Translations under genes and position numbers: made by a program
The notes under the pieces: generated by a model
What the model was told of the DNA's origin: nothing
Databases searched by the model: none
What the model saw: only the letters and a program-made list of their open reading frames with translations
Shown: piece after piece, positions 5,783-13,479 of the stretch
Numbering within the stretch: position 1 is the stretch's first letter
Layout of the letters: each line of letters begins with the position of its first letter
DNA from: Rhodoferax sp.
Lineage (GTDB): Bacteria > Pseudomonadota > Gammaproteobacteria > Burkholderiales > Burkholderiaceae_C
Assembly: GCF_018780565.1 (NCBI RefSeq)
Contig: NZ_JADMJN010000003.1
Coordinates: 1 to 64,000, forward strand
DNA length: 64,000 nucleotides
Direction: 5' to 3'

Positions 5783-6442
5783 ATGACCGCCTCACGCCAA
5801 GCCGCAATTCAGGAAAAAACACTCTCTACCTTGAGCCCGGCTTTACGCAGCCTGGCGCAGCGTGGCACGCTGCGCAGCTACGCCAAGAACACCATCATCG
5901 TGTCCGAAGGCGATGCCGGCGACACCCTGTTTGTGCTGACCAAGGGCCATGTTCGCGTGTTCGCATCCGATCTTGATGGCCGGGAAATCACCTTTGGCCA
6001 TATCCATGCAGGCGACTATTTTGGCGAAATGTCACTGGATGGTGGACCCCGTTCGGCCTCGGTCGTGACACTTGAGTCCTGCACCTGCGCCGTGGTGACC
6101 CGCGCCGCCGTGCGCGATCATCTGGACCAGGAGCCCGGCTTTGCGATGGACCTCGTGGCCCAGGTCATCCGGCGCGCCCGCAACGCCACGGAATCTGCCC
6201 GCAGCATGGCGCTGATGGATGTGTACGGGCGCGTGTCGGTCCTGCTGGAGAGTTACGGCGGTCCGGGCAGCCCGGAGCAGCCGGTTGAAATCACCGCCAT
6301 CACCCACCAGGACATCGCCAGCCGAGTCGGCGCCTCCCGCGAGATGGTGAGTCGTTTGCTGAAAGATCTTGAAAAAGGTGGCTATATCCAGCTCGGTATC
6401 AAGCGCCTGACGCTGCTCAGCAAGCTACCGGCGAACTGGTAG
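5783..6442 (+). CDS. Crp/Fnr family transcriptional regulator
   Basis: A 219-residue regulator. Residues about 20-130 form a cyclic-nucleotide-binding-like beta barrel (GDAGDTLFVLTKGHVRVF, GDYFGEMSLDGGPRSASV), and the C terminus carries a winged helix-turn-helix (THQDIASRVGASREMVSRLL). No Fnr-type cysteine cluster is present, so oxygen sensing through an iron-sulfur centre is unlikely; a cAMP-like ligand is possible. A much longer frame exists upstream but overlaps the GMC gene; the ATG at 5783 gives the standard length. It follows the GMC gene by 65 nt and may control it (inference). Confidence 0.9.
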   Translation: MTASRQAAIQEKTLSTLSPALRSLAQRGTLRSYAKNTIIVSEGDAGDTLFVLTKGHVRVFASDLDGREITFGHIHAGDYFGEMSLDGGPRSASVVTLESCTCAVVTRAAVRDHLDQEPGFAMDLVAQVIRRARNATESARSMALMDVYGRVSVLLESYGGPGSPEQPVEITAITHQDIASRVGASREMVSRLLKDLEKGGYIQLGIKRLTLLSKLPANW

Positions 6443-6457: not shown

Positions 6458-8356
6458 TTACAGCGCGTTGAAGACCTTGCGGGTGATTTGCGGCGCTGCA
6501 TCACTGGTGCCCACCAAACGCGCCACACCGCCGCTGCGCGTGCTCGCCGCCTTCAAGCCCAGCAGTATCGGGTTTTCATCACTGCAAGCCTGCATGTCCG
6601 GCACCTTGACGATGCCCGGCCGCTCGGGTCGCGTGGCATCGGGGTCTGGCTTGCGCGGCGAATAGTGTGCCCAGGTCGAGCCCGTTACACGCACGCCGCC
6701 CACCGAGATGGTTTTGGCCCCTGTGGCAATGCTGTTGAAACTACCGCTGCGCCGAATGGGCGAAGGGTTGTCCGGGTGATCCACAAACGAGCCCGGGTTG
6801 CCACTGGTGTCATACCAGCGGTCTTCAAAGTGCGATTGCTCGGCACCTGTTTGCACCCCGATGATCTGGTCATCCCGCTCCACATAGGCGTCTACCGTTA
6901 CCTTGCCTGCCTGGGTGTTGCTGATCGTCACCTGCCACACGCCGCTGGGCGCGGTGGCCGTCTTCTTGTCAAAGGCCAATGTCGGGGCCACGGCGATCAA
7001 GGCACAGGTGCCGTGGGCACCGATCGCCACACGCTGTGGATAAATCAGTGCACACAGGGGCTTGCCATCCGCTGTGTTCCAGGTGCCAGACTCGCCCCAT
7101 TTGAGGGGCGGCAGGCTGGGTTGCCCCGGTGGCGTCAGTTGCACGGCAATGCCTTGCGCCCCGGCAGGGAGCCACAGTTCCAGAAAATTTTGAGTCAAAT
7201 CGGCCGCTTGCCCCCGCCAATCAAGTGTAATTTGCTCACCTTTTGATAGCGTTGTGTTGGCATGCGTGCGGCTCTGGTAGCTGTTGCTGGCGGGCAGAAC
7301 GATTTGCAGGTGCCCGGCTTTCAGGGTGATGAGCTGGTCCATCGCCGCCTCCAGCACCGAGCTGCCGTCATGTGGCCCGGCCAGCGTGCCCCAACTCAGG
7401 TTCACGGCCACTTTGGCCTTGGCGGTGCAGCGTGCCAGGATGAACATCAGGCCGTCCATGATGTGCACATTCATCGAGCCGCCCGAGGTGTCCAGCACCG
7501 TGTCCCAGTCCAGCTGTACGGCCACGATATCGCAGCGGCTGGCCTCGTCGTCCGCCTGGGCCCAACTGGGTGGCGCATCGGGGTGGGGCGGCGCGCCCGC
7601 TATCTGGGCCAGCACTGTGCGTGGGCCGCAGGCAATGTCCAGCACATGGGTGCCGTGGTTCACGCGCTTGTTCAGTTCCATGCCCATCTTGAAATGGGTG
7701 TACACCGCCGTCTCGTCCACCAGGCCGCCATAGGTGTTGTTCTGCATGGCCTGGTCGATGTCGGCCGCCGTCAGCGCATGGCCGTAGTTCAGGTCAGTGG
7801 GCGTCTGGCCCACGCCCTTGTGGTCTTGCCGCCAAAAGTGCTGGATGCGTGTCTTGCCCTTGCGCAGGAAATTGGCCTGTGCAAAAGCCAGGCCACCGTC
7901 AATCAGGCCCATCACCTTGCCATCCAGCAAGGCCGGCGGCTTGGCCTGGCTGGATGTGGTGGGCGCGGTCGGGTCGTCGGCATGGTGGCCAGCGGGCAGC
8001 CCCAACTCAAAGCGCTGCACCAGTGCGTGCAAACTGCCCCCGGGCTGGATGTGCTTGAAGAAAGCCGGTCGCACCCGTGCCGTGCAATAACGCAGCCCGG
8101 TAGGTGCGGTGGCTGAGGTGTACACCGGTGGCACATACAGCCACACGGGTGAGGCTGCCGCCAGCAACTGCGCTACGCTGACGCCGGGCGCCAGCTCGAC
8201 CAGCAGCGGCAGCCACTTGGGCGGCTTGCTCAGCCCATAGCCGGCAAAGTTGTCGGCTTCGGCCCAGATCAGGTAGGGGTCAAAACCTGCGGTGGCGCCT
8301 GGTACGGCCCAGTTGATGCCGGTAAAGCCCCCTTGGGGCAGAGGAGTCCAGTGCAT
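6458..8356 (-). CDS. S8 (subtilisin-like) serine peptidase
   Basis: A 632-residue protein with a complete subtilase triad: Asp153 in GLIDGG, His234 in NHGTHV and Ser618 in GTSDAAP. The Asp motif DGG replaces the usual D-T/S-G and the catalytic serine lies only 15 residues from the C terminus. An insert of roughly 350 residues separates His and Ser. No signal peptide is seen, so it may act inside the cell or need another route. The first 145 residues match no domain I recognise. It is the last gene of a three-gene minus operon after the cyclase and the haloperoxidase-like enzyme (9 nt from the latter), which suggests a joint function of unknown nature. Confidence 0.85.
   Translation of the reverse strand: MHWTPLPQGGFTGINWAVPGATAGFDPYLIWAEADNFAGYGLSKPPKWLPLLVELAPGVSVAQLLAAASPVWLYVPPVYTSATAPTGLRYCTARVRPAFFKHIQPGGSLHALVQRFELGLPAGHHADDPTAPTTSSQAKPPALLDGKVMGLIDGGLAFAQANFLRKGKTRIQHFWRQDHKGVGQTPTDLNYGHALTAADIDQAMQNNTYGGLVDETAVYTHFKMGMELNKRVNHGTHVLDIACGPRTVLAQIAGAPPHPDAPPSWAQADDEASRCDIVAVQLDWDTVLDTSGGSMNVHIMDGLMFILARCTAKAKVAVNLSWGTLAGPHDGSSVLEAAMDQLITLKAGHLQIVLPASNSYQSRTHANTTLSKGEQITLDWRGQAADLTQNFLELWLPAGAQGIAVQLTPPGQPSLPPLKWGESGTWNTADGKPLCALIYPQRVAIGAHGTCALIAVAPTLAFDKKTATAPSGVWQVTISNTQAGKVTVDAYVERDDQIIGVQTGAEQSHFEDRWYDTSGNPGSFVDHPDNPSPIRRSGSFNSIATGAKTISVGGVRVTGSTWAHYSPRKPDPDATRPERPGIVKVPDMQACSDENPILLGLKAASTRSGGVARLVGTSDAAPQITRKVFNAL
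7234..7277 (+). repeat. Palindromic mini-element, possible diverged copy
   Basis: GCT, an A/T-rich spacer and ATAGC, followed by 19 nt and GGCTCTGG. It resembles the element family but the spacer is two bases shorter than the usual 21. It lies inside the subtilase gene in the antisense direction. Confidence 0.35.
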
Positions 8357-8365
8357 GGTGGCGCC

Positions 8366-9445
8366 TTATTGGAGGGGAGCCCATTCCGCAGCGGCTTGGG
8401 TCCACATGAAATTCAGCAAGGGCGAGGCGGCGACCGCATGGCTGCCGGCCATCAGTTCGTAGTAGCCGCTCTGGTTGTCGGCCATGGAGACCCGTGGGTC
8501 AAAGTCGATCACATGGCCCTTGGCATCGTGGAACTTGCGGCCATCAAAGCCGCGCTCGTGCAGCTTGGCGGTGGTGCAGCGTGCCACCATGAAATCGGCC
8601 AGCACCGTGCCCAGCAGGCGCCCCACCGCGCTGTCTACCGGGTAGTGCAGGCCGGCGACTGTGCGGTTGACGGCAATGCGCGCGGCCAGCCGCTCCAATT
8701 GCTCGCGGTACTTGCCGCCGTGCGGCAACAGCGATTGCAGCAGTGCGCAAGTCAGATAGGCTTCGGTGGCGTGGCCGCTGGGCCAGCTGGCGTGGCCGGG
8801 TGTGGGGATCATCGGCTGGATTTGGGGTGACAGATCGACCGGACGCTGGCAGGCAAAACCGTGCTTGAAGCGCATCTCGACGTGCGTCGCCAAGGACATG
8901 GCCAGGTCCAGCAGCTCCAGCGTGTATTTGTGGCGGTGCGCCGTCAAGCCGATGATGGAGGCCCAGAAGGCGCCCCCGCCATTGACTTGCGCCAGAATTT
9001 CAGCGCCCCGGTCCTCGCGCAGCTCGGCATAGTTGGCCACCAGGTCCAACTGCTGCTTGAAGATTTTCTCGGTGGGGCGCACCAGCCGCGCCAGCGCCAG
9101 GTCTTTGAGCGGCTTCTTGCCCAGGTCCACAAAGCCCAGTGTCATCGAGGTTTTGGCCTGGTTGACGTTGAAATGCAGGCCGGACAACAACTCCAGCTCG
9201 CACACCGCCATGCGCGGACCGACGGCCCAGTCGGCCAGGCGTTCGGCTTTGTCCAGCGGCGTGGGCAGGGTGGCGGGGAGGGTAGCGCCCTGGAAGGGGC
9301 CTACCAGGGCAGCGCGGTTTGTGGACAGGGCATGCGCTTCTACGGCCGGGTCCATGGCGTACCCGCCGCTATACCCGCCGCTATACCCGCCGCTATACCC
9401 GCCGCTATACCCACCGCTATACCCACCGCTATACCCACCGCTCAT
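8366..9445 (-). CDS. Vanadium-haloperoxidase/PAP2-like enzyme with N-terminal SGGY repeats
   Basis: A 359-residue protein with the full vanadate/phosphate-binding signature of the PAP2 and vanadium haloperoxidase superfamily: Lys194-x6-Arg201-Pro202, PSGH at 222-225, and Arg261-x5-His267-x3-Asp271. It could act as a haloperoxidase or a phosphatase; the long helical region before the signature favours the haloperoxidase group. Residues 2-29 are seven perfect SGGY repeats, which is not a signal peptide and is unusual for the family. An AAGGA ribosome site lies eight bases before the ATG. It lies between a cyclase gene (26 nt upstream) and a subtilase gene (9 nt downstream). Confidence 0.82.
   Translation of the reverse strand: MSGGYSGGYSGGYSGGYSGGYSGGYSGGYAMDPAVEAHALSTNRAALVGPFQGATLPATLPTPLDKAERLADWAVGPRMAVCELELLSGLHFNVNQAKTSMTLGFVDLGKKPLKDLALARLVRPTEKIFKQQLDLVANYAELREDRGAEILAQVNGGGAFWASIIGLTAHRHKYTLELLDLAMSLATHVEMRFKHGFACQRPVDLSPQIQPMIPTPGHASWPSGHATEAYLTCALLQSLLPHGGKYREQLERLAARIAVNRTVAGLHYPVDSAVGRLLGTVLADFMVARCTTAKLHERGFDGRKFHDAKGHVIDFDPRVSMADNQSGYYELMAGSHAVAASPLLNFMWTQAAAEWAPLQ
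9360..9443 (-). repeat. Seven 12-bp tandem repeats coding SGGY
   Basis: Seven head-to-tail 12-bp units (plus-strand TACCCGCCGCTA or TACCCACCGCTA) start every 12 bases from 9360. Four units have CGCC and the three nearest the start codon have CACC, so copies cluster by variant as expected for recent expansion. They encode residues 2-29 of the haloperoxidase-like protein and stay in frame with any copy-number change. Confidence 0.95.
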
Positions 9446-9471
9446 ATCATTTTCCTTTTAAATTGTTGAAA

Positions 9472-11319
9472 CTAATTTTCCGCGAGATTCAATGCGCGCA
9501 ACGCGATCACGCAACGTTGTCGCGTGACGCTGCTAGCGCTTCCAATCGCAAGATAGCTTGCAATTGTCAGTCCTGGTGTTTCTTGTAACAGAGAGTTCAA
9601 CGTGGTACGCGCCTCGCCTACCAATCCGGCTTCTACTTGCGCAGTGAGAAGTACTCGCAAGGTTGGAGCGTGATGTCGATTTGCTCTCAAGGATTGCCGA
9701 GCAAATGCAATTGCCTGAGCCTGTTCATTGACCGTCAATAGTGCCGCCGACAAAAGCATGTCGAAGTAGTATTTAAGTGGGTCAATAGGCGATAGTGCAT
9801 TGGCATACTCAACCTCAACAACCGCGTCTCTTGGCGCACCCCACATAGTGGAAAGAACGCTCTTGAATAACCATGCCATTGGTTCGCTTGGGTTTGAAGC
9901 CATTGATTGCTGAAGTCTTTGATTTGCTAGTTCTATGTTCCCGAGCAATTGACAATGTGCATGTCCTTCAATGGCAAGCGTTAGTGCGTTGCCCGGTTCA
10001 ATGTCGAGCGCTCGTTTAGTTTGATCAAGAGCCAACTGGGTGTCTTTTCCAGGCGCATCGCTCAACCCCCGGATGACCCGCATGATGTGCCACTTGGCTA
10101 GCCAAGCCCTCGGGGTTGCGATGCGGCCATGCCGTTCTATCAATGCTTCCAGGGTCAAGCGGCTGCGGTCGAAGTCGCGTACAGACGAACGATGCATCAT
10201 TGAAATACCGCCCAGCAGCAGAGAACTGCTGTCCAGTCGTGGCATCGGCTGCACCAGGGCTTGCTGAACCTCCGCATCGAGTAGCGCGCGCGATGTTGCT
10301 GCAGCAATCCCATTGAGTAGTTCGCTCTGGGTCTGCAATAAATCAAATGTCTCCCCTGACACACGATCAGCCCAGATGATTTCGTTGTTGCGTGTGTCCG
10401 CCAGCTCCGCCATGATCAAAATCTTGCCGCCGCTGGCGATGTAGCTGCCCGACAGCACGAACGAGGCATCCAGCCGCGACTCGACTTCTGGCATGGCGCC
10501 GGCTCGTCCCCGGAATGCGGTGGTGGACAGGCGTGAGATGACGCGAAGGTCCGGGCTACGCGAAAGTTGCCCAATGACACCATCGGCAATCAGCTCGCCA
10601 ATCACAAAATGCTCAGGCTCGTTGCTGCGCGCTTCAAACGGAATCACGGCAATGGTGGGCCGGAAGTCTGGTGCCAAAGTCTTGTTCGACGGTATCACCG
10701 GCGCATGCCCCACCGGCCCCACCCGGTAGGTGCGCACCGGTTCTTTGACGTGCTTGAGGTGGCATTCGCCCAGGTCTTCAATGTCGGCGTCCAGTGCTGC
10801 GGTCAAGCCGTCGCGCAGATCGGCGGACACCACCAGCTCGTCCGGGCCGGCGAGGGAACACAGGCGGGCGGTCAGGTTGACATCGCTGCCATAAATATCA
10901 TGCTGGTCGCTGACGAACTCCGCCACGTGCGCGCCCATGCGCAGGTGCATTTTTCGCTCGGAGGCAATGCCTTGGTTGGCCTGCTGGCTATAGCCCTGCA
11001 ACTCAAAAGCGGCTTTGGAGCAGCCCTGCGCGCTGGCAAACTCCAGCATCAGGCCGTCGCCCAGGCTTTTGACAATGCGCCCGCCATGCTGCGGCAGGAT
11101 GTGGTGCTCGGCCTGTGCCACCAGCTCGCGCCAGCGCTGCACAAAGTCGTCTTCGTCCAGCTCCATCAAGCGCACCGACTCCACCACGTCCATCACCATC
11201 AGCACTTTGGTGTGCCGGGGCTGGAAGTTGGGCAGGTCCGTCGCAGGGGGCGTCATTGCATCTTGATTGATTGGGACAACCTTCCATTCTGGCGGAAGTA
11301 TTGGCAGGCGGTGTGACAC
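9472..11319 (-). CDS. Class III adenylate/guanylate cyclase with TolB-like and TPR-type regions
   Basis: A 615-residue multidomain protein. Residues about 37-190 form a class III nucleotide cyclase domain: metal-binding Asp44 in MVMDVVES and Asp88 in KSLGDGLMLEF, and the later DVNLTARLCSLAGPDELVVS. Residues about 225-350 (AVIPFEARSNEPEHFVIGE) resemble the TolB/FlgO-like N-terminal fold often fused to cyclases. The remaining 250 residues are helical repeats of TPR type. No membrane segment is seen. The GTG at 11319 is the longest start, but no good ribosome site supports it; an ATG at 11256 is an alternative. First gene of the operon with the haloperoxidase and subtilase, suggesting cyclic-nucleotide signalling tied to those enzymes. 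Confidence 0.85.
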   Translation of the reverse strand: MSHRLPILPPEWKVVPINQDAMTPPATDLPNFQPRHTKVLMVMDVVESVRLMELDEDDFVQRWRELVAQAEHHILPQHGGRIVKSLGDGLMLEFASAQGCSKAAFELQGYSQQANQGIASERKMHLRMGAHVAEFVSDQHDIYGSDVNLTARLCSLAGPDELVVSADLRDGLTAALDADIEDLGECHLKHVKEPVRTYRVGPVGHAPVIPSNKTLAPDFRPTIAVIPFEARSNEPEHFVIGELIADGVIGQLSRSPDLRVISRLSTTAFRGRAGAMPEVESRLDASFVLSGSYIASGGKILIMAELADTRNNEIIWADRVSGETFDLLQTQSELLNGIAAATSRALLDAEVQQALVQPMPRLDSSSLLLGGISMMHRSSVRDFDRSRLTLEALIERHGRIATPRAWLAKWHIMRVIRGLSDAPGKDTQLALDQTKRALDIEPGNALTLAIEGHAHCQLLGNIELANQRLQQSMASNPSEPMAWLFKSVLSTMWGAPRDAVVEVEYANALSPIDPLKYYFDMLLSAALLTVNEQAQAIAFARQSLRANRHHAPTLRVLLTAQVEAGLVGEARTTLNSLLQETPGLTIASYLAIGSASSVTRQRCVIALRALNLAEN

Positions 11320-12696: not shown

Positions 12697-13479
12697 ATGC
12701 AGCCGGATACACCAAGCGATGATGACGTAACGGTAACGTTTCACCGGGTCTATCCGGCCGCAATCCCCCCGATGCGGGCGGACAAATCGGCCATGGGTAT
12801 CATGCCCACCATGGCGTTTCGCCATTGTGAGCCGATGCGCATGGCGTCTTCATTTGGTTGGTACATATTCCCGCCTGAGGACATCTTTTTGAAGTGGAAC
12901 GGGGCGGACGTTTTTTTCAAGCAGGATGACGAATGGGTGCCGCTGTCCAAAGCTTACCTGCCAGGGTTTGCGGAATATTGGGACGCGAATGCGCCCGAAG
13001 AGATGCAGGGTTTGGCCCCGCCATTTCTGTCTTGCCTTCCGGTGCGGGGCATTGTGCAGATTTGGTCAGGCTTGCTTTGCGGCACGCGTCCTGGCTGGAG
13101 TGTGCTGGTGCGACCGGTCGCCAATGTCCGTGGCAGCCATCTTTATTCGTGTTCTGAAGGTTTGGTGGAGTCGGACTCTTTCCATCCATTCCCGCTATTC
13201 ACCAACATCCAGTTGATCGCCACCGATGTGCCGATCGAAATTCCAAAGGGCGTGCCCCTGTTTCAAATTCAACCCTTGATGCGCGGCACCTATGGCGATG
13301 CCGCGCACCGCTATGAGGACCGTGAAGGAATGGGTCTCCTGGCCAACGGTGAACCCGCCATGTCCGAAGCCGATTGGGCGGGCTACCGCAAGACGATTCG
13401 GGTTGAGGTGGACGACGCGCCTGCCGAGTCGGGGCAATACACGGCTGCAACCCGTAAGCGCACGAAGCACGAGGATTAA
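12697..13479 (+). CDS. Uncharacterised protein, possibly DUF6065 family
   Basis: A 260-residue soluble protein with no signal peptide. Conserved-looking stretches are FGWYIFPPEDIFLKWNG near residue 50, FTNIQLIATDVPIEIPKG and PLFQIQPLMRG. These remind me of the DUF6065 family, but this is from memory and no biochemical role is known. A GGGAGG ribosome site lies 10 bases before the ATG. It is 28 nt downstream of the three-repeat small protein and followed by a terminator, so the two form a two-gene unit. Context suggests that it acts on or with the small protein (inference). Confidence 0.65.
   Translation: MQPDTPSDDDVTVTFHRVYPAAIPPMRADKSAMGIMPTMAFRHCEPMRMASSFGWYIFPPEDIFLKWNGADVFFKQDDEWVPLSKAYLPGFAEYWDANAPEEMQGLAPPFLSCLPVRGIVQIWSGLLCGTRPGWSVLVRPVANVRGSHLYSCSEGLVESDSFHPFPLFTNIQLIATDVPIEIPKGVPLFQIQPLMRGTYGDAAHRYEDREGMGLLANGEPAMSEADWAGYRKTIRVEVDDAPAESGQYTAATRKRTKHED

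Follow-up and report, generated by a model that had tools for sequence, protein, structure and literature searches.

Within the window, by which we mean the whole 64,000-nt stretch of Rhodoferax sp. DNA that was analysed (contig NZ_JADMJN010000003.1, positions 1 to 64,000), three open reading frames (ORFs) on the minus strand encode a regulator protein with cyclase, TolB-like and TPR regions (gene 1), a PAP2-fold enzyme (gene 2) and a subtilase (gene 3), with spacers of 26 and 9 nt between them (Table 1). Right after the start of gene 2, a 12-bp tandem repeat of 6.9 copies (9360–9442) encodes SGGY seven times, and the analysis below concerns this peptide array and the C-terminal tail of the gene 1 TPR solenoid, with which the repeat unit co-varied among related loci. 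An initial annotation of the same DNA had described three genes on one strand, 9–26 nt apart, which proved correct; its cyclase, TPR, vanadate-pocket and subtilase-triad assignments also stood, while TolB matched weakly, and the array, its putative reader, a CRP-type gene just downstream and the conservation of the trio had escaped it. A promoter scan of the operon gave nothing above chance.

Table 1. Positions of the three genes, their domains and the adjoining regulator gene in the window
Feature	Position	Strand	Remarks
Gene 1, regulator protein: class III cyclase, TolB-like domain and C-terminal TPR alpha-solenoid	9472..11319	-	615 aa; start candidates GTG 11319 or ATG 11256
Cyclase catalytic domain, aa 35–201	10717..11217	-	metal Asp44/Asp88, K84, N148, R152
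TolB-like alpha/beta domain, aa 222–323	10351..10656	-	weak profile match and AF2 model
C-terminal part of TPR solenoid, aa 521–612, putative reader	9484..9759	-	co-variation with repeat unit
Gene 2, PAP2-fold enzyme	8366..9445	-	359 aa; complete vanadate/phosphate pocket
Tandem peptide array SGGY x7, gene 2 aa 2–29	9359..9442	-	disordered in lone AF2 model
Gene 3, subtilase	6458..8356	-	632 aa; triad D153/H234/S618, oxyanion N358; long insertion between His and Ser
CRP-type regulator gene, cyclic nucleotide (cNMP)-binding and helix-turn-helix domains	5783..6442	+	convergent to module; listed ORF from TTG 5513

The Pfam Guanylate_cyc match in gene 1 (2.5e-6) passed the family cut-off, as did TPR_19. 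An AlphaFold2 (AF2) model of this protein, with a predicted local distance difference test (pLDDT) score of 87.6, comprised a catalytic domain (residues 35–201), an alpha/beta domain (222–323) and an alpha-solenoid (333–612), and the catalytic domain superposed on Ma1120-type adenylyl cyclases with Z = 24.9 (VIA-align, in which the matches listed concerned the cyclase domain only and TPR relatives were unranked). Among 95 cyclase-type orthologs, counted after six winged-helix Phaeobacter proteins had been moved out, Asp44 and Asp88 were conserved in 95/95, K84 in 86/95, N148 in 93/95 and R152 in 94/95; by its two metal-binding Asp residues and transition-state Asn/Arg, the domain is assigned to the class III nucleotide cyclases. 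In Phaeobacter (plasmid loci L157–L162 and L164), an OmpR/CadC-type winged helix (Trans_reg_C) takes the place of the cyclase. The N-terminal part of gene 1 in L059, L060, L061 and L067 matched neither the cyclase profile nor the tested winged helix.

Gene 2 matched the Pfam PAP2 family at 2.4e-9, and its pocket residues K194-R201-P202, G224-H225, R261-G265-H267 and D271 were invariant among 35 orthologs, the Ser of PSGH being Ala, Cys or Met in some; the KX6RP / PSGH / RX5HX3D pocket places the protein in the PAP2 superfamily as judged by sequence. Its AF2 model (pLDDT 88.5) left residues 1–31 disordered. The nearest solved relatives by both profile and fold were soluble acid phosphatases (7f17: profile E 6e-23, fold 1e-6), whereas the bacterial vanadium iodoperoxidase scored worse (5e-3 by fold), indicating that gene 2 is predicted to lie nearer to acid phosphatases than to haloperoxidases. 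Gene 3 had no Pfam S8 match; its triad and oxyanion residues were invariant and in order among 20 orthologs, and by these residues it is a predicted subtilase of the S8 family. Its closest solved relatives were CspB germination proteases (CspB profile E 6e-25). In L055, the subtilase carries a Pro-Ala repeat (CCTGCA x18) near its N-terminus, separate from the PAP2 array.

Arrays were present in 133 of 141 distinct PAP2 orthologs (median 29 aa and 8 copies) and were built from 59 different units, mostly Gly-rich and of period 3 or 4 (for instance SGGF and GGA), along with GTT, TSA, NSF, RASLWP and WVA, the WVA array of L090 including unresolved bases. Six-residue units (GIGRNG, RASLWP, GIGRTA and GGVGPY) occurred in L059, L060, L061 and L067. 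Control stretches reached an equal array score in a few percent of cases or less. Between neighbouring units of near-perfect runs, divergence was 0.73 at synonymous sites (pS), close to saturation, and 0.014 at non-synonymous sites (pN); since the codons have changed while the residues stayed constant, we conclude from the sequences that selection on the peptide maintains the repetition. Most arrays have scrambled codons and identical residues, and some, including the window's own and those of L128 and L131, are nearly DNA-identical and young. Recent slippage as the origin of the repeats was ruled out for most arrays because the majority of synonymous sites change from one unit to the next, and the same observation, together with the absence of an Rfam match, made an RNA-level role unlikely. 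Copy number varies between close relatives: Phaeobacter strains with cores about 99% identical carry 5 to 7 copies of NSF. Where a genome or bin has two modules, their units are different (SGGA/GGS in G714, SSH/TSA in G096 and SGI/LTG in ND3_Bin_7). In L250 and L251, which belong to other families of the class, distantly related PAP2 proteins carry arrays with units of two residues (SM x10 and RNRNRNRNR), and one of them adjoins a weakly related gene-1 protein; arrays as a principle may predate the trio and extend beyond it.

The unit turned over rapidly. It differed in 17 of 42 pairs of loci at 90–100% PAP2-core identity and in 70 of 89 pairs at 80–90%, and even between 97%-identical enzymes. 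In such different-unit pairs the operon was otherwise alike, with the exception of the last ~90 residues of gene 1: this TPR tail was similar if the unit was shared and dissimilar if it was not, at every level of PAP-core identity (in the 0.80–0.85 bin, for same versus different unit, TPR tail identity was 0.81 vs 0.56 and subtilase identity 0.80 vs 0.77). In 25 disjoint nearest pairs, residual identity of the tail was +0.02 for the same unit and −0.24 for different units (p=1.4e-5). Both pS and pN were raised in the tails of different-unit pairs, indicating that an old and divergent version had taken the place of the tail DNA. When unit labels were mapped on trees of the individual regions, the TPR tail required 61 changes, compared with 65 for TolB, 67 for TPRa+b, 68 for PAP2 45–140, 68 for the subtilase and 71 for the catalytic domain (minimum 51). 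When comparison was confined to relatives of less than 45% background identity, the last 46 aa of the tail still predicted the repeat period in 92/106 cases, and regions outside the tail in 37–69. The subtilase showed no co-variation with the unit (effect −0.009, disjoint-pair test), and L245 has a cyclase-PAP2 pair with an ANT x7 array and no subtilase detected in the 11 kb fetched, so that the core pair appears to be the regulator and the array-bearing PAP2. A strict link between array and subtilase, hinted at by L069 and L070, was ruled out by L245.

The same pattern was observed in a held-out set of 47 further Hydrogenophaga loci, all with arrays, 18 of which were absent from the discovery set. 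All 13 nearest pairs in the analysed identity range differed in unit, with tail identities of 0.41–0.70 at background identities of 0.70–0.97. Thirteen of the new sequences shared their unit with at least one other locus; the closest match by tail carried the identical unit for 11 of them, and the closest matches by the other regions for 0, 0, 1, 1, 0, 1 and 2. In the pair L111/L220, identity was 0.99 in the catalytic domain, 0.96 in TolB, 0.95 in PAP2 45–140 and 0.96 in the subtilase, compared with 0.49 in the tail; L220 is a natural recombinant, in which a block resembling L038/L103 lies at operon nt ~1200–2000 of an L111-like backbone. Recombination repeatedly ended just beyond the array, and no silent donor cassettes were found in the window's own genome or in eight Hydrogenophaga genomes. 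Because PAP2 45–140, which is equally close to the array on its other side, does not track the unit, and because recombination ends past the array, the simplest reading of these sequences is that mismatched combinations of tail and array are lost and that the two must fit. Loci are related, so that raw counts overstate independence, which the disjoint-pair and held-out tests address in part; several loci derive from metagenome-assembled genomes.

The initial annotation had proposed a co-inherited, signalling-linked unit of undescribed composition, and this agrees with the genomic distribution: far from being rarely neighbours, cyclase and PAP2 genes were together in 40 of 40 wide Burkholderiaceae loci, followed by the subtilase in 38, with order and strand constant. 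At E 1e-3, 107 of the 299 genomes of the family yielded PAP2 relatives; many were generic PAP2 proteins and ~46 were strong. Eighty loci with organism names covered Beta- and Alphaproteobacteria (Polaromonas, Hydrogenophaga, Ramlibacter, Paraburkholderia, Bradyrhizobium, Tardiphaga, Microvirga and others), and plasmid searches added Rhizobium and Phaeobacter loci, some on conjugative plasmids. Three Rhodoferax genomes lacked the module. In Hydrogenophaga, it was present in 39 of 44 good genomes at one syntenic locus with flanks in common. This near-universal syntenic presence, the absence of module members from viral contigs and the lack of a PADLOC family match, apart from a marginal one to PycC (E 0.04), led us to reject the defence module that had been suggested initially, and likewise a defence island; the window's own flanks include lnt, glyQ and glyS. 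A CRP-type gene adjoined the module or lay within 5 kb of it in 49/95 cyclase-type loci and 0/14 others, these loci being related and not independent. At individual loci, we observed that both the PAP2 and subtilase genes are broken and the winged-helix regulator is intact in L163 (Parasedimentitalea marina plasmid pW43B), and that gaps of ~2.7 and ~1.6 kb, possibly insertions, separate regulator and PAP2 genes in L089 and L092, respectively. An ORF at 12697–13479 of the window gave a partial DUF6065 match.

Taken together, these observations suggest that the operon is probably, though far from certainly, an intracellular signalling module that is complete in itself and carries both lock and key, in which the TPR tail reads the PAP2 array sequence-specifically. 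The PAP2-fold enzyme would present, at a flexible N-terminus, one short peptide in many identical copies, to which, as co-variation and recombination suggest, the C-terminal TPR solenoid of the regulator would bind, and the many equal sites could gather two or more regulator molecules. A class III cyclase works as a dimer, and such clustering may switch on the cyclase, or the winged-helix form in Phaeobacter. The output would then be cyclic AMP (cAMP), possibly acting via the CRP-type regulator often encoded next door, or direct DNA binding in the Phaeobacter form. The subtilase is presumed to be an accessory, and one might speculate that it clips the tail or the complex for reset or trigger. 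Reader and array would be exchanged between strains as one cassette of ~400–900 bp, each strain keeping a matched, insulated pair. It is possible, if rather doubtful, that this amounts to a bacterial identity code, in which an arbitrary short peptide, legible through its perfect repetition, serves as the key of a signalling enzyme, the TPR reader is swapped alongside it as a cassette, and each strain gains, at a constant place on its chromosome, an insulated channel (self/non-self) private to itself.

Several observations weigh against recognition of the array by the tail and cAMP output. A CRP gene within 5 kb is missing from about half of the cyclase-type loci, and CRP sites were not enriched upstream of the operon. 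Arrays are ragged or absent in L047, L057, L065, L069 and L070, and the pS and pN values of neighbouring units were ascertained on runs chosen for their regularity. A 90-aa reader cannot touch all of 8–17 units simultaneously, and the identity of every unit therefore needs multivalency or sliding. Finally, the 3′ end of the reader adjoins the 5′ end of the array on the DNA, and joint exchange could be partly linkage. If linkage were everything, a recombination-prone repeat would drag the adjacent cyclase 3′ end along with no recognition involved, and the raised pS and pN of the tail do look like replaced DNA; however, PAP2 45–140, equally near the array, tracks the unit far less (68 vs 61 changes; 0/13 vs 11/13 predictions), the period is still predicted below 45% background identity, and linkage cannot account for residues, not DNA, keeping the repeat perfect, which makes this explanation very unlikely.

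Another reading is a peptide signal. The subtilase would cut the array into identical 3–6-residue peptides for the TPR receptor to bind, in the manner of RRNPPA quorum sensing, the units being pherotypes, and a TPR receptor with an exchangeable N-terminal output domain, a subtilase within the operon, identical copies, receptor-unit co-variation and the precedent of RRNPPA propeptides that contain tandem pheromone copies (PMC11343458) all fit. We nevertheless regard it as unlikely, given that no co-variation links the subtilase to the unit, that L245 has its array with no detectable subtilase, that no export signal was seen by eye on the three proteins and that the array is attached to a folded enzyme. 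Alternatively, free PAP2 may be harmful and held by the TPR-cyclase through the array, in a toxin/restrainer or immunity-like unit whose diversification averts cross-talk with incoming modules. Cognate-pair turnover, different units in two-module genomes or bins and the presence on conjugative plasmids are consistent with this, but the syntenic, near-universal occurrence in Hydrogenophaga and the lack of a PADLOC family are not, and the subtilase and the conserved cyclase catalysis would be left unexplained, so that it seems quite unlikely. The oxidative module envisaged by the initial annotation, with PAP2 as a vanadium haloperoxidase producing hypohalite, draws on the complete vanadate-pocket residues, but these are common to acid phosphatases, to which gene 2 scored closer than to bacterial vanadium peroxidases, and this role appears extremely improbable.

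If recognition of the array by the TPR tail is real, the loci would constitute well over 100 natural evolutionary trials of TPR-peptide specificity, with unit and reader known from one operon, and could serve as a ready data set on peptide reading by solenoids and as a basis for orthogonal binding pairs. Proteobacteria would gain a peptide-addressed signalling switch, and what drives such fast private coding would become the question. We know of no system with a perfectly regular, selected array whose unit is free to be almost any 3–7-residue peptide and is followed by a reader domain, and in the literature searched, which covered few subscription journals or preprints, no description of the trio or of array/TPR-reader coupling was found.

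The component families are known, and it is the coupling of a strictly regular, freely chosen array to a co-exchanged TPR reader that appears new. The catalytic domain and its residues are shared with class III adenylyl cyclases (Ma1120, Rv1900c and CyaB), whereas that of the module is joined in one protein with a TolB-like domain and with a TPR solenoid that has a hypervariable tail. Gene 2 shares its fold and vanadate/phosphate pocket with soluble class A acid phosphatases (7f17 and PhoN) and vanadium haloperoxidases, but has its own N-terminal alpha/beta region (aa 60–160) and the variable array. With the CspB-type subtilases, which are clostridial germination proteases, gene 3 shares the S8 core and the long insertion before Ser; unlike them, it comes from Proteobacteria, stops close to its catalytic Ser in the window's version and is partnered with a signalling operon. 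Conflict systems with a cNMP cyclase and a peptidase (Kaur et al. 2020, PMC7159879) likewise combine both parts with diversifying components; however, no MoxR-vWA or EAD partner was seen at the module, and PAP2 and haloperoxidase are absent from the text of that paper. Another close parallel is offered by RRNPPA quorum-sensing systems of Bacillota (Rap/Phr and PlcR/PapR), with which the module has in common a TPR receptor that bears an N-terminal output domain and stands beside a peptide that it may read, as well as fast turnover of cognate pairs. The module differs in being proteobacterial, in its output by a class III cyclase or OmpR-type winged helix together with a TolB-like domain, and in its peptide, which is an array with strict unit identity over 8–17 copies on a PAP2-fold enzyme with no visible export signal. 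It has the receptor architecture of RRNPPA, but since its peptide is part of a 359-aa folded enzyme and not a small secreted propeptide, it is not an RRNPPA member. By analogy, the module would work like a TPR receptor with its cognate peptide, or like exchangeable specificity cassettes, while being a member of none of these systems.

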